Source of the DNA: Marinicauda salina
Lineage (GTDB): Bacteria > Pseudomonadota > Alphaproteobacteria > Caulobacterales > Maricaulaceae
Direction: 5' to 3'
DNA: 64,000 nucleotides
Assembly (NCBI RefSeq): GCF_003122085.1
Contig: NZ_QEXV01000004.1
Coordinates: forward strand, 62,001 to 126,000
Shown: in pieces, positions 60,128 through 63,745 of the stretch
How the letters are laid out: each line of letters starts with the position of its first letter
Position numbering within the stretch: the stretch's first letter is position 1
Notes under the pieces: generated by a model
Databases searched by the model: none
What the model saw: only the letters and a program-made list of their open reading frames with translations
Told to the model about the DNA's origin: nothing
Program-made: the position numbers and the translations under genes

Positions 60128-60183
60128 TCCCCGCCTGCATCGCGGTCCGGCCCCGCGCAGCTTGACCATTCGAGCCCACAACA

Positions 60184-60217
60184 GGAATATAATCCCAATT
60201 ATATACTTGACTGAACG
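60184..60217 (+). repeat. Left terminal inverted repeat of the IS1595-type element
   Basis: 34 bases starting GGAATATAATCCCAATTATA and ending CTTGACTGAACG. The complement of 62543-62576 matches except at positions 4 and 9. The GG end fits the IS1595 family. Confidence 0.9.
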
Positions 60218-60256
60218 CTCGGCGTTTGGGAGGATGGGCGCGTAGGGAGATTCGCT

Positions 60257-61243
60257 ATGGCCTTCAACCTCACTGATCCGATCTTTCACGACGAAGACGC
60301 CGCGCGCGCTCACCTTGAAGCGCTGCGCTGGCCGAACGGTCCCGTCTGCCCTTATTGCGGCGAGACGGAAAAGGTGAAAGCCCTCGGCGGCAAGTCCATG
60401 GGGCCGGGCTGGCATCACTGCGGCGCGTGCCGCAAGAAGTTCACCGTGCGCGTCGGCACCGTCTACGAGCGTTCCAAGGTTCCGCTTCACAAGTGGCTGC
60501 TGGCGACGCAGATGATGGCGTCGTCCAAGAAAGGCGTCTCCGCTCACCAGCTTCACCGCACACTCGGCGTCACCTATAAGACCGCCTGGTTCATGGCGCA
60601 TCGCATCCGCGAAGCCATGCGCGAAGACTTGCCCGAAGGCGGCATGGGCGGGTCCGGTCCGGTCGAGGCGGACGAAACCTATTTCGGCTCGGTCGAGAAC
60701 AAGCGCACGACCCGCACGTCAGGCCAGAAGTTCATCCACTCCAAGCAAGGCCGCGGCCCGGCGAACAAGCGCTGCGTCATCGCACTGGTCGAGCGCGGCG
60801 GCACGGCCCGCACTTTCCACGTTCCGCAGGCGACCAAGGAAATCGTCGGCGCGATCCTGTTTCAGAACGTCCGCCGCGAGGCGAAACTCTATACCGACGA
60901 GTCCAAGCTCTATCACCTACCCGGCAAGCAGTACGCCGAGCATTCCATGGTGAAGCACTCAGTCGGCGAGTACGCGCGCGGCCCGGTGCATACGAACACG
61001 GTCGAAGGCTACTTCTCGATCTTCAAGCGAGGCATGAAGGGCATCTATCAGCATTGCGCGGAGAAGCACCTGCACCGCTACCTCGCCGAATACGACTTCC
61101 GCTATAACCACCGCACCGCGCTCGGCGTGAACGATGAAGAACGCCGCGACGCCATCGTGCGCGGAGGTGAGGGCAAGCGCCTCACCTATCGGCGGACTGC
61201 TACTTTCCACCGTCCCGCCGGTGAGGGGCTTGGAATTTGTTAA
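60257..61243 (+). CDS. IS1595-family (ISXO2-like) transposase
   Basis: A 328-residue transposase. An N-terminal zinc ribbon (CPYCGETEKVK, then CGACRKKFTVR) leads into a helix-turn-helix (GVSAHQLHRTLGVTYKTAWFMAHRIREAM). The DDE-type catalytic domain follows with acidic residues in EADETYFG, LYTDESKLY and NTVEGYFSIFKRGMKG; the last is the asparagine/glutamate-bearing motif of ISXO2-like enzymes. TAGGGAGA precedes the ATG. All catalytic motifs look intact, so the element could still be active. Confidence 0.93.
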   Translation: MAFNLTDPIFHDEDAARAHLEALRWPNGPVCPYCGETEKVKALGGKSMGPGWHHCGACRKKFTVRVGTVYERSKVPLHKWLLATQMMASSKKGVSAHQLHRTLGVTYKTAWFMAHRIREAMREDLPEGGMGGSGPVEADETYFGSVENKRTTRTSGQKFIHSKQGRGPANKRCVIALVERGGTARTFHVPQATKEIVGAILFQNVRREAKLYTDESKLYHLPGKQYAEHSMVKHSVGEYARGPVHTNTVEGYFSIFKRGMKGIYQHCAEKHLHRYLAEYDFRYNHRTALGVNDEERRDAIVRGGEGKRLTYRRTATFHRPAGEGLGIC

Positions 61244-61316
61244 GTTCCGTAAGCGCTAGACTCGCCCATGCGTTGCGATAAACTCCCGCTCGCCTAAAGC
61301 GAGATGGGAGGGCCAA

Positions 61317-61478
61317 ATGGCCTACCGAAAGCGCAACGACAGCGACACGTGGCACTGGTGCCGGAATTGCTCCAACTGGCCGACTTCCGGGTATACGGAG
61401 AAGCCGTCCAAACCCAGCTCCGGCGAGCTGTGCAATGAGTGTCAGGGCAAGGACAAGAACGGCGACTGCCGCCGCTAG
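61317..61478 (+). CDS. Small zinc-knuckle cargo protein
   Basis: A 53-residue protein with two CxxC pairs (WHWCRNCSNWPTSG and LCNECQGKDKNGDC), a likely single zinc ribbon, and a polar, basic remainder. A strong GGGAGGG precedes the ATG. Its TAG stop interlocks with the stop of the opposite-strand gene in the palindrome CTAG (61475-61478). It follows the transposase by 73 bases, which include a small CTCGC/GCGAG hairpin. The role is unknown; it may bind nucleic acid. Confidence 0.68.
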   Translation: MAYRKRNDSDTWHWCRNCSNWPTSGYTEKPSKPSSGELCNECQGKDKNGDCRR

Positions 61479-61723
61479 TCCGCAGCCCACTCAGGGCGGA
61501 AGCAAAACGCCGCCCGATCCCCTGCGAAATACAGCGCGGTGAGAGAGGCGGCGTACAGCACGCCCCTCTCTCGCGCAAACTCATCGAAGCAGTGAAGGCA
61601 CACGACACGGCTTTGCAGTGTGAGCGGGACAATGCGCGCCCATAGCTCATCGGGTATCGTGTAGTCGAACTTATCGGGCCTGCCGCACGCCTTGCATGTC
61701 TGACGCTGCGAGACGGGGACCAT
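61475..61723 (-). CDS. Zinc-ribbon-like cargo protein
   Basis: An 82-residue protein with CKACGRPDKFDYTIPDELWARIVP and VVCLHCFDEFARERGVLY, giving two CxxC pairs as in small phage/IS zinc proteins. Its ATG overlaps the stop of the upstream small gene by one base (TAATG), so it is translationally coupled to it. Its own stop interlocks with the plus-strand gene. No function can be assigned. Confidence 0.65.
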   Translation of the reverse strand: MVPVSQRQTCKACGRPDKFDYTIPDELWARIVPLTLQSRVVCLHCFDEFARERGVLYAASLTALYFAGDRAAFCFRPEWAAD

Positions 61724-61857
61724 TAGTCGCCGTCCTCTTTCTTGGGCGGCTTTTTCTTGCCATCGTGCGGCTTCGGCGGCGTTTCCAGCATCCGCTTTAG
61801 AGCGCGGTCGCGGATGCGCTGGGCTTCCTTCTCTGATCGCTTGTCATCGGGTTTCAT
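61723..61857 (-). CDS. Small basic cargo protein
   Basis: A 44-residue, lysine/arginine-rich protein (SEKEAQRIRDRALKRMLETPPKPHDGKKK). It resembles small hypothetical proteins from phages and mobile elements with an RIRDRAL...TPPKPH pattern, as far as I recall the family. Its start codon interlocks with that of the divergent HEPN-like gene in CATG (61855-61858). It is coupled to the next gene by a TAATG overlap. Confidence 0.55.
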   Translation of the reverse strand: MKPDDKRSEKEAQRIRDRALKRMLETPPKPHDGKKKPPKKEDGD

Positions 61858-62374
61858 GATGGATGACCACACAGACCAACTAGCCGACGCCTTACACATT
61901 GAGCTGGGCCGGTGCATAACTCAATGGGCCAAGGTTGAGCATCACCTCTGCATTCTATTCGTCGTTTTAATGCGTAGTGAAGATGATAACCGATCATTTT
62001 GGACCTTTTGGGCCGTCTCCTCCTTCAAGGGAAAACTCGATATGACCGCCGCCGCAGCCCACAGGGCATTCGCCAATAATCCCGAACTCATGAGTGAATG
62101 GAACGCCTGTAAGAATAAGCTCGGCAAGATAAGTTTGAAACGGAATGAGCTTGCACACGCCTCTATTAGTTGTGGAAAGAGAGGGATTGGCGAAGAGCGG
62201 GAAACGTTCGCCGAGCTAATTCCATATGGAGGCAAGAACACGCTGCCTGTTATGGCCGGCGACGTTCATGCGCTCACCATCAAAGACCTAAAACAGCGCC
62301 TAATCGGCTTCAAAATCGCTGCGGATCGAGTCTTCTGTATGCTGGCGCGCGCCAACCAGTACCTTAACCAGTAG
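61856..62374 (+). CDS. HEPN-like cargo protein
   Basis: A 172-residue mostly helical protein. QWAKVEHHLCILFVVLM begins a four-helix bundle, FKGKLDMTAAAAHRAF continues it, and the motif RNELAH (about residue 100) is an RX4H pattern typical of HEPN domains. HEPN proteins are often RNases in defence or toxin-antitoxin systems, but many are inactive. Codon use is much more AT-rich than the chromosome, a sign of separate origin. The start is uncertain: two adjacent ATGs at 61856 and 61859, with no ribosome site visible. Confidence 0.6.
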   Translation: MMDDHTDQLADALHIELGRCITQWAKVEHHLCILFVVLMRSEDDNRSFWTFWAVSSFKGKLDMTAAAAHRAFANNPELMSEWNACKNKLGKISLKRNELAHASISCGKRGIGEERETFAELIPYGGKNTLPVMAGDVHALTIKDLKQRLIGFKIAADRVFCMLARANQYLNQ

Positions 62375-62542
62375 CTCCCTCACGCAAAACCGAAGCTGAT
62401 CGAATCCGATTGAGCGGTCATACTCGTCTATGTACCCCGAATCAGAAAGTCTGCGCGCGAAACGATCCACCAGCTCATCGGTGAGCGGCGTCTCCGGGAT
62501 AACAAGCGCTGGCCTGTCTTGCGTATGGTGCGAATTGGTCAT
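62300..62542 (-). CDS. Short cargo protein of unknown function
   Basis: An 80-residue frame (LTDELVDRFARRLSDSGYIDEYDRSIGFDQLRFCVRELLVKVLV) with helical, protein-like composition. It begins one base inside the right terminal repeat and overlaps the 3' end of the HEPN-like gene by 75 bases on the opposite strand. This could be a real gene or an antisense frame. Its beginning does not overlap another coding region, which favours reality. Confidence 0.42.
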   Translation of the reverse strand: MTNSHHTQDRPALVIPETPLTDELVDRFARRLSDSGYIDEYDRSIGFDQLRFCVRELLVKVLVGARQHTEDSIRSDFEAD

Positions 62543-62576
62543 CGTTCAGTCAAGTATATAATTGGGAATATAATCC
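62543..62576 (-). repeat. Right terminal inverted repeat of the IS1595-type element
   Basis: 34 bases starting CGTTCAGTCAAGTATATAAT and ending GGGAATATAATCC, the inverted partner of 60184-60217 with two mismatches. Confidence 0.9.
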
Positions 62577-62636
62577 TCGCAATCTGCGATCCTTCCTATC
62601 ATCGCCTTCGACACGAACGGCGAACGGGGAAAAACG

Positions 62637-62981
62637 ATGACGCGCGAGGATGCCAGAGACGCCATGGACCGGGCGCGGGCGAGGCTGGCCCGGGAGGCCG
62701 CGGCCTACGCCTTCGGGGTGGACGCCGCCGAGATCGCCGCGCCGACGCGGCGCTCGGCGCGGACCGCGCTCGCCCGCCAGGTGGCGATGTATCTCACCCA
62801 CGTGGCCTTCGAGCTGAGCCTGTCGCGGACCGCGCTCGCCTTCGGGCGCGACCGGACGACGGCGGCCTATGCCTGCCACCGCATCGAGGACCGCCGCGAC
62901 GACGCCGCGTTCGACGCGCTGCTGGACGATCTCGAGGCGTGCCTGAGAAGCGCGCCGACGCCGGATCGGGCCGCGGCGTGA
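62637..62981 (+). CDS. hdaB: HdaB-like stand-alone DnaA domain IV protein
   Basis: A 114-residue protein. RQVAMYLTHVAFELSLSRTALAFGRDRTTAAYACHRIEDRRDD is the DnaA domain IV plan (helix-turn-helix with the signature loop), without the ATPase part. Caulobacter HdaB is such a protein and relieves regulatory inactivation of DnaA by interfering with HdaA. The same role here is an inference from resemblance. GGGGA precedes the ATG. Its stop shares GTGA with the start of the DUF6456 gene, so the two are translated together. Confidence 0.75.
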   Translation: MTREDARDAMDRARARLAREAAAYAFGVDAAEIAAPTRRSARTALARQVAMYLTHVAFELSLSRTALAFGRDRTTAAYACHRIEDRRDDAAFDALLDDLEACLRSAPTPDRAAA

Positions 62982-63745
62982 GCGCGGGCTGGCTGAAGCG
63001 CCTCGCCAGGCCCGGCCGGGTGCTGGCGCCGTTGCCGGGCGGGCGGACAGGGTTCGGCGTCTACGCTGGCGCCGATCGCCGCCGCCGGCCCTTCGCGACG
63101 GTCTCGCGGACCCGCGTCGAACAGGCGGTCTCCGACGGGCTGATCGAGCCGGCGGGGCAGGGCGCCTACGTCCTCGCCGAGGCCGGCCTGGCCCGGCTCA
63201 GGCGCGCCGAGGCCCCGGCCGGCGAAGGCTTCGCCGCGCAACACCGCCGCATGGGCCGGCGCGAGGTGATCGACGAGGCCGGAAGGCTGAACGCCGTGCG
63301 CGCCGATCTCGACAGCGTCTCGCCGGTCGCCCGCTATGCGCGGGCCCAGGGCGATGTCCCTCCGTTGCTGGATCCCGTCCACGTCACGGCCGCCGAGACG
63401 CTGGCGCGCGATTACGAGCGCTCGGCGCTGAGGAGCCGGGTGACCAGCGACTGGACCGCGCCGCCGCAGGCGAAGACCCGCGGCGCGCCGCGCGATCCCG
63501 CCGATCTGCCGGCCTCGCGGCTCGACGCGCGGGCGCGGGTGATGGACGCGCTGGCCGCCGCCGGGCCCGGGCTCGACCGGCTGCTCGTCGACGTCGTTCT
63601 GAGGGAGACGGGGATGAGCGCCGCCGAGCGCGATCTCGGCTGGCCCGCCCGCGCCGGGGCGCCGGCGCTGCGCCTGGCGCTGGAGCGCGTGGCCGTCCAC
63701 TACCGGCTCAAGGCGCCGGCGAAGACGGCCGATCCGTTTTCTTGA
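62978..63745 (+). CDS. DUF6456-type protein
   Basis: A 255-residue basic protein. The N-terminal third looks like a winged helix (VSRTRVEQAVSDGLIEPAGQGAYVLAEAGLARL, residues 42-75). The C-terminal half with VMDALAAAGPGLDRLLVDVVLRETGMSAAERDLGWPARAGAPALRLALERVAVHYR resembles DUF6456, common next to hdaB-like genes in alphaproteobacteria. The start is GTG, overlapping hdaB. It could be a regulator acting with HdaB; the biochemical role is unknown. It converges on sufE. Confidence 0.65.
   Translation: MSAGWLKRLARPGRVLAPLPGGRTGFGVYAGADRRRRPFATVSRTRVEQAVSDGLIEPAGQGAYVLAEAGLARLRRAEAPAGEGFAAQHRRMGRREVIDEAGRLNAVRADLDSVSPVARYARAQGDVPPLLDPVHVTAAETLARDYERSALRSRVTSDWTAPPQAKTRGAPRDPADLPASRLDARARVMDALAAAGPGLDRLLVDVVLRETGMSAAERDLGWPARAGAPALRLALERVAVHYRLKAPAKTADPFS

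Follow-up and report, generated by a model that had tools for sequence, protein, structure and literature searches.

In this study we analysed a 64,000-nucleotide stretch of the Marinicauda salina genome (contig NZ_QEXV01000004.1, hereafter the window), which contains a mobile element of 2373 bp at positions 60194-62566. We propose, with a probability of roughly 70%, that this element is a self-contained IS1595-type transposon, whose toxin- or defence-like cargo is exchangeable and whose preferred target is a self-repairing palindrome in regions controlling gene transfer agents (GTAs), which spread DNA and kill the producing cell. An earlier note on the window had described a compact cargo, including a HEPN-like protein, within an IS1595-type element and had considered it a candidate for an undescribed mobile system, a description that stands with the apparent novelty of the group. 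The note had overlooked the target duplication hidden inside the terminal repeat, the conserved small protein C0, the swapping of cargo and the position of the insertion, which lies in the regulatory region of a gafYZ-like operon.

Boundaries and transposase of the element

The features of the IS1595 family are found together here, namely a DDE domain with a zinc ribbon, inverted repeats around the gene and an 8-bp duplication. The transposase gene (60257..61243, + strand) encodes 328 aa and is, judged by its sequence, a complete and intact IS1595 enzyme, as the earlier note had read from its motifs: it matches PF12762 over the full length (1.5e-34), the zinc ribbon PF12760 (5e-11) and NF033547 (9e-62, 209 bits against a cut-off of 75), and D139, D214, E250 and Cys 31/34/55/58 show no or almost no variation among relatives (at least 96% conserved).

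The inverted repeat arms at 60183-60217 and 62543-62577 are complementary at 94%, with a chance expectation for a 34-mer repeat of E 5e-7 in the whole genome, and the 34-base repeats noted earlier are thus present beyond chance. Their length needs correction, since comparison with relatives places the true ends, CCCAATTATATACTTGACTGAACG, at 60194-60217 (+ strand, containing TTGAC) and, as the inverted match, at 62543-62566 (- strand), leaving terminal inverted repeats of 24 bp with similar ends in other elements. The repeat appears to be 34 bp long because the duplication AATATAAT sits in a palindromic target, GG-AATATAAT-CC, outside the 24-bp ends. Its left copy occupies 60186..60193, preceded by GG at 60184-60185, and its right copy 62567..62574, followed by CCTCGC, which regenerates the GG-N8-CC palindrome. 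The direct repeat at this site extends over 12 bp, and the duplication was set at 8 bp through relatives with exact 8-bp repeats (L013, L031, L034, L074 and L091). A target duplication of 8 bp is typical of the IS1595 family.

The window genome (G000) carries one copy of the element. A further IS1595-type element in it, about 2.95 kb long (G000:C1:641540-644495; L215 1541-4496), has diverged, differs in its ends (GGGCGATATTATACTT) and carries cargo of its own.

A cargo-bearing group with a common plan

The comparison rests on 74 elements with matching ends, drawn from the loci of a genome scan (the best 80 of 540 loci, which are not independent and come from other alphaproteobacteria with transposases about 55-64% identical), from loci of relatives and from the window itself, with some element classes assigned by motif. 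All 74 measure 1.9-3.25 kb, of which approximately 1 kb is transposase, and every one carries 1-2 kb of cargo. Viral contigs supplied a second sample of 45 further elements, which measure 1.66-4.66 kb and whose ends are doubtful in a few cases. Across the resulting 119 elements with paired ends we detected none that lacks cargo, and the same classes of cargo turn up repeatedly between these ends; the cargo-free copies that the earlier note had named as evidence against its reading did not appear. ORF clustering and gene order revealed a recurrent plan of transposase, variable cassette A, antisense C0 and variable cassette B, often closed by a short antisense gene next to the right end. The window element apparently belongs to a large and undescribed mobile group in alphaproteobacteria. 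A sister subgroup (L075, L082, L099, L103) is without C0, has ends with ATATTATACTT and carries antisense cargo of 311-325 aa.

The GC content falls from 0.71 in the flank to 0.63 in the transposase and 0.57 in the cargo, reaching about 0.51 across 61800-62300, in agreement with the AT-rich later cargo reported before. The accompanying claim, that this copy had acquired its cargo from a different source, is not supported: cargo GC lies below transposase GC in 74 of 74 elements, so this universal step does not date any acquisition in the window copy and a recent foreign origin based on AT content was rejected.

Exchange is seen between closely related elements. In 63 pairs whose transposase genes have an identity of 80% or more, the median aligned cargo share is 2.6%, and the aligned density is 16% around C0 and 2.3% elsewhere. 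In pairs with transposase halves about 89-97% identical, similarity ends 30-60 bp past the stop codon and returns mostly just at 40-120 bp around C0 and in the last 20-60 bp, with a longer common right part (498 bp) in the pair L071/L092. Moreover, the identity of the HEPN-like proteins has no relation to that of the transposases (r 0.06, 595 pairs). With transposases this similar and a median common cargo of 2.6%, the cargo has been exchanged around a fixed core; by sequence comparison, the ends, the transposase and C0 are kept and the two cassettes flanking C0 are replaced. The short conserved blocks may serve as the recombination points for these swaps.

The target palindrome and GTA control regions

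Among 68 reconstructed target sites, GGA-N6-TCC is present in 38, compared with a background of 0.24%, and AGG-N8-CCT in 42, which suggests that the transposase may recognise this palindrome. Because most element ends begin with CCT or CCC, the palindrome is rebuilt at both junctions. The genomic context of the insertions points to GTAs: 19 of the 74 elements lie 0.4-2.2 kb upstream of a GTA-type large terminase, mostly at the palindrome, which there adjoins the TTGAC of a promoter whose -10 is TAGGGT-like, and 11, the window element included, lie 71-374 bp (71 bp in the window) upstream of a gafY-like gene with DnaA domain IV-like sequence. About four in ten elements (30/74) are thus found at two loci of GTA control regions, in both orientations (7 versus 12 and 7 versus 4), not counting three further GTA-like promoters recognised by sequence only. 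That the terminases belong to GTAs and not to prophages rests on domain content, gene order and promoter context.

In viral contigs with a rhizobial-type GTA promoter, a simple rule scored the palindrome as occupied in 12 of 47 cases and as empty in 33, two or three of the latter resembling diverged ends, and a terminase lies downstream in 43 of the 47. The exact box-plus-TTGAC promoter was not found upstream of terminases in 59 loci from the window genome's own relatives and class, nor in 385 genomes of the class; present in viral contigs, both empty and occupied, it is therefore confined to some groups. A search for Rfam families in 12 loci around the common target gave none.

These data bear on the simplest alternative, an ordinary IS1595 insertion with picked-up passengers, whose position upstream of a gafYZ-like operon would be coincidental and follow from a preference for intergenic AT-rich DNA. 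IS1595 (ISXO2-like) elements occasionally carry passenger genes, the target duplications are mostly AT-rich, and the preference is not exclusive, as 41 of the 74 elements are located away from recognised GTA loci. Nevertheless, we regard such a coincidence as very unlikely, because cargo occurs in every relative and in most of them in the same plan, because 30 of 74 insertions fall in both orientations at two loci estimated to make up well under 0.1% of the genome, and because a pre-existing palindrome was hit at the same point, intact in empty GTA promoters and occupied there in others.

Outside the GTA loci, 7 of the 41 elements (L032, L033, L054, L060, L070, L077, L100) lie no more than 150 bp from a LexA-like GTTC-N7-GTTC box, which has a background of 0.7% per 300 bp, and by eye an imuA-like gene is apparently adjacent in L054 and L060. 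SOS promoters are possibly a second target class.

The gafYZ-like operon of the window

Downstream of the element, the gafY candidate (62637..62981, + strand), in whose control region the insertion lies, matches the DnaA domain IV-like family PF08299 (1.2e-13; compare PMC9632790), and the second gene of the operon, the gafZ candidate (62981..63745, + strand), matches DUF6456 (PF20057, 1e-33), with an overlap of 1 bp between them. DUF6456 was matched in Caulobacter alone among 14 control genomes. We consider the operon a gafYZ-like candidate by its domains, gene order and promoter context rather than by alignment to the Caulobacter genes. In Caulobacter, GafY, which has homology to DnaA domain IV, and GafZ activate the gene transfer agent, and RogA represses gafYZ at a region with GGAA-N4-TTCC repeats (PMC9632790). 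This RogA-bound promoter region resembles the present target in position and length, being at the same place and having the same 12-bp span as GGA-N6-TCC (PMC9632790).

An intact palindrome is found at the same place upstream of gafY in most relatives examined, e.g., ATAGGAAAGTTATCCTCGC, and in a genome of another genus (G040) a related element with a 66% identical transposase occupies the same site in the same orientation and carries a different HEPN-like gene. Immediately beyond that G040 element, and accompanied by its own C0, is the best-matching relative of the window HEPN-like protein (26%). The window element inserted into the conserved palindrome about 70 bp upstream of the operon, duplicating its 8 central bases, and the site may act as a harbour that suffers little, since the promoter-side half of the palindrome is rebuilt.

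The same loci could also reflect selection instead of targeting, if insertions upstream of gafYZ or of the GTA cluster had become frequent by shutting off a lethal particle programme. In Caulobacter with the GTA switched on, insertions in gafY and gafZ are indeed enriched (PMC13236601), and the GTA promoter requires IHF and GafY sites upstream of the -35 (PMC11150451), which an insertion would move away from it. Furthermore, the window genome has no Terminase_6 gene while keeping the gafYZ-like operon, compared with a GTA-type terminase in 34 of 41 genomes of a search, and its GTA cluster seems, by sequence, to have been lost or to have decayed. Yet under selection alone insertions should be spread across the genes, whereas here they share one palindrome, and 22 of 36 sites away from GTA loci likewise carry GG-N8-CC. 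Selection in place of targeting is therefore unlikely in our view, albeit worth more than a coincidental insertion. The preference may stem from the specificity of the enzyme, from selection for GTA silencing or from the two combined. We hold a more far-reaching form of targeting to be similarly doubtful, in which the lineage would use GTA control sites as attachment sites and complete the operator upon insertion, tie its expression to the GTA, deploy HEPN-like and defence cargo in the conflict between cell, phage and GTA, and possibly even spread in GTA particles.

C0, the HEPN-like protein and the remaining cargo

The earlier note had listed small cargo genes on both strands, and five such ORFs are present. 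The conserved hub between the two cassettes is C0 (61723..61857, - strand), a small basic protein of 44 aa from the ATG at 61857 with the core RDRALKRMLETPPKPH. Its cluster is represented in 65 of the 74 elements, antisense every time, with the core motif confirmed in 64 ORFs and a few members being chance extensions. Differences by codon position (171/84/414) show an excess at the third, so C0 is a real protein under selection at the protein level; a shadow ORF or a DNA-only block was ruled out by this bias together with the varied gene contexts. In relatives, C0 occurs 15 times, of which 11 are near an IS1595-type transposase or a remnant and four are in transposase-less loci. Plausibly it is a small protein specific to the element, which might act as a regulator or an antitoxin.

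Back to back with the start of C0, cassette B encodes the HEPN-like protein (61859..62374, + strand), with 171 aa and the motif R95-N-E-L-A-H100. An iterated profile identified HEPN-like proteins in 35 of the 74 elements, all 35 with R-x4-H; overall, 35 of 38 profile matches hold the motif; the remaining three are fragments no longer than 120 aa, and in two cases the element also encodes a full-length member. In an alignment of 32 sequences, which are 11-21% identical to the window protein, R95 and H100 alone are constant apart from the start, a constancy that is partly by construction because the rows were chosen to hold R-x4-H. The predicted structure is a helical bundle (mean pLDDT 87), in which helix 75-99 ends at the motif, and comparison with PDB structures gave HepS of prophage Gifsy-1 with Z 8.5 (rmsd 4.0, 115 aligned) and a HEPN toxin with Z 6.9. 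Two relatives match Pfam HEPN_RiboL-PSP (best 9e-6), and one viral predicted protein matches the model by structure (E 2.4e-5). A sequence search of PDB yielded nothing useful, and no relatives were found in phage records. These features suggest that the protein may be a metal-independent RNase of the toxin or abortive-infection type, which could pay for the element through addiction or phage defence. A HEPN-like relative was also observed near a DUF4011 gene on R. leguminosarum plasmid pRLN2 (L217), by annotation outside any such element.

The arrangement raises the possibility that the HEPN-like protein is paired with C0 in a toxin-antitoxin system, which would make the element a mobile addiction module. 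Their starts are back to back in the window and in L112, and a HEPN-like ORF adjoins C0 in all four transposase-less loci of relatives. Against a pair, C0 is kept with unrelated cargo types, and the HEPN-like sequences are very diverse (median identity 19%) for one small conserved partner, so that we treat this pairing as no better than a tentative, rather improbable option. In the window genome, a transposase-less remnant at about 142 kb of G000:C3 (L216, L120) holds a right-end-type protein, a HEPN-like ORF and C0 in the kept order; a HTH-like gene (FEFSIVASGLDP) lies near it, and likewise near the second module of G040.

Cassette A contains orf53 (61317..61478, + strand) and orf82 (61475..61723, - strand), both with a CxxC...CxxC pattern and uncertain gene status; no convincing relatives of orf53 and none of orf82 were found in other loci. 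The start of orf80 (62300..62542, - strand) lies beside the right end, where other elements encode the right-end antisense family (DRQAGxEIEITPEMIEAG), but its sequence does not support membership in this family (1.8 bits). None of the five small cargo ORFs has a significant family match itself. Elsewhere in the group the cargo includes SocA/Panacea, IrrE-like, HNH, Cas2-like, DUF3800 and PADLOC candidate proteins, a mix typical of toxin and defence genes, from which we infer such a function.

Comparison with known systems

A literature search found no description of elements with such a plan, C0, cargo swapping and a palindromic target in GTA regions. The group resembles IS1595 (ISXO2-like) elements in its zinc ribbon and DDE transposase, terminal inverted repeats, 8-bp duplications and occasional passengers, but differs in that cargo is present in all sampled copies, mostly in one plan with C0, is swapped at a high rate, and that the target is a palindrome of GTA control regions. 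Like the present element, Tn7-like transposons use a conserved harbour site. They also carry diverse defence cargo (PMC8649781); in contrast, the present element has an unrelated single transposase, measures 2-3 kb and inserts in a control palindrome rather than at a gene end. HepS and other stand-alone HEPN proteins share with the window protein the helical bundle, the HEPN-like motif and the status of a single-protein cargo on a mobile element, with no detectable sequence similarity to HepS and a modest structural match.

Several points weigh against the proposed transposon with exchangeable cargo and a GTA-directed target, in addition to the insertions outside GTA loci. Some common sites may be inherited and not hit anew. 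In the PDB comparison HepS scores no higher than unrelated helical bundles, Foldseek with the window model gave no PDB match below E 0.3, and Pfam gave no match for the window HEPN-like protein itself. The occurrence of C0 with non-HEPN cargo speaks against a dedicated antitoxin. Finally, transposition, expression and activity would here be predictions from the sequence and the modelled structure, from which we also infer the effects on GTAs and the function of the cargo.

In conclusion, if our reading is correct, a transposon group that lands repeatedly on the two control points of GTAs, restores the palindrome and carries rapidly changing genes of toxin or defence type would represent a new player in the conflict around these agents, and small HEPN proteins could readily be drawn from the group. 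It would also open the question whether a host operator is recognised by a transposon as its attachment site.
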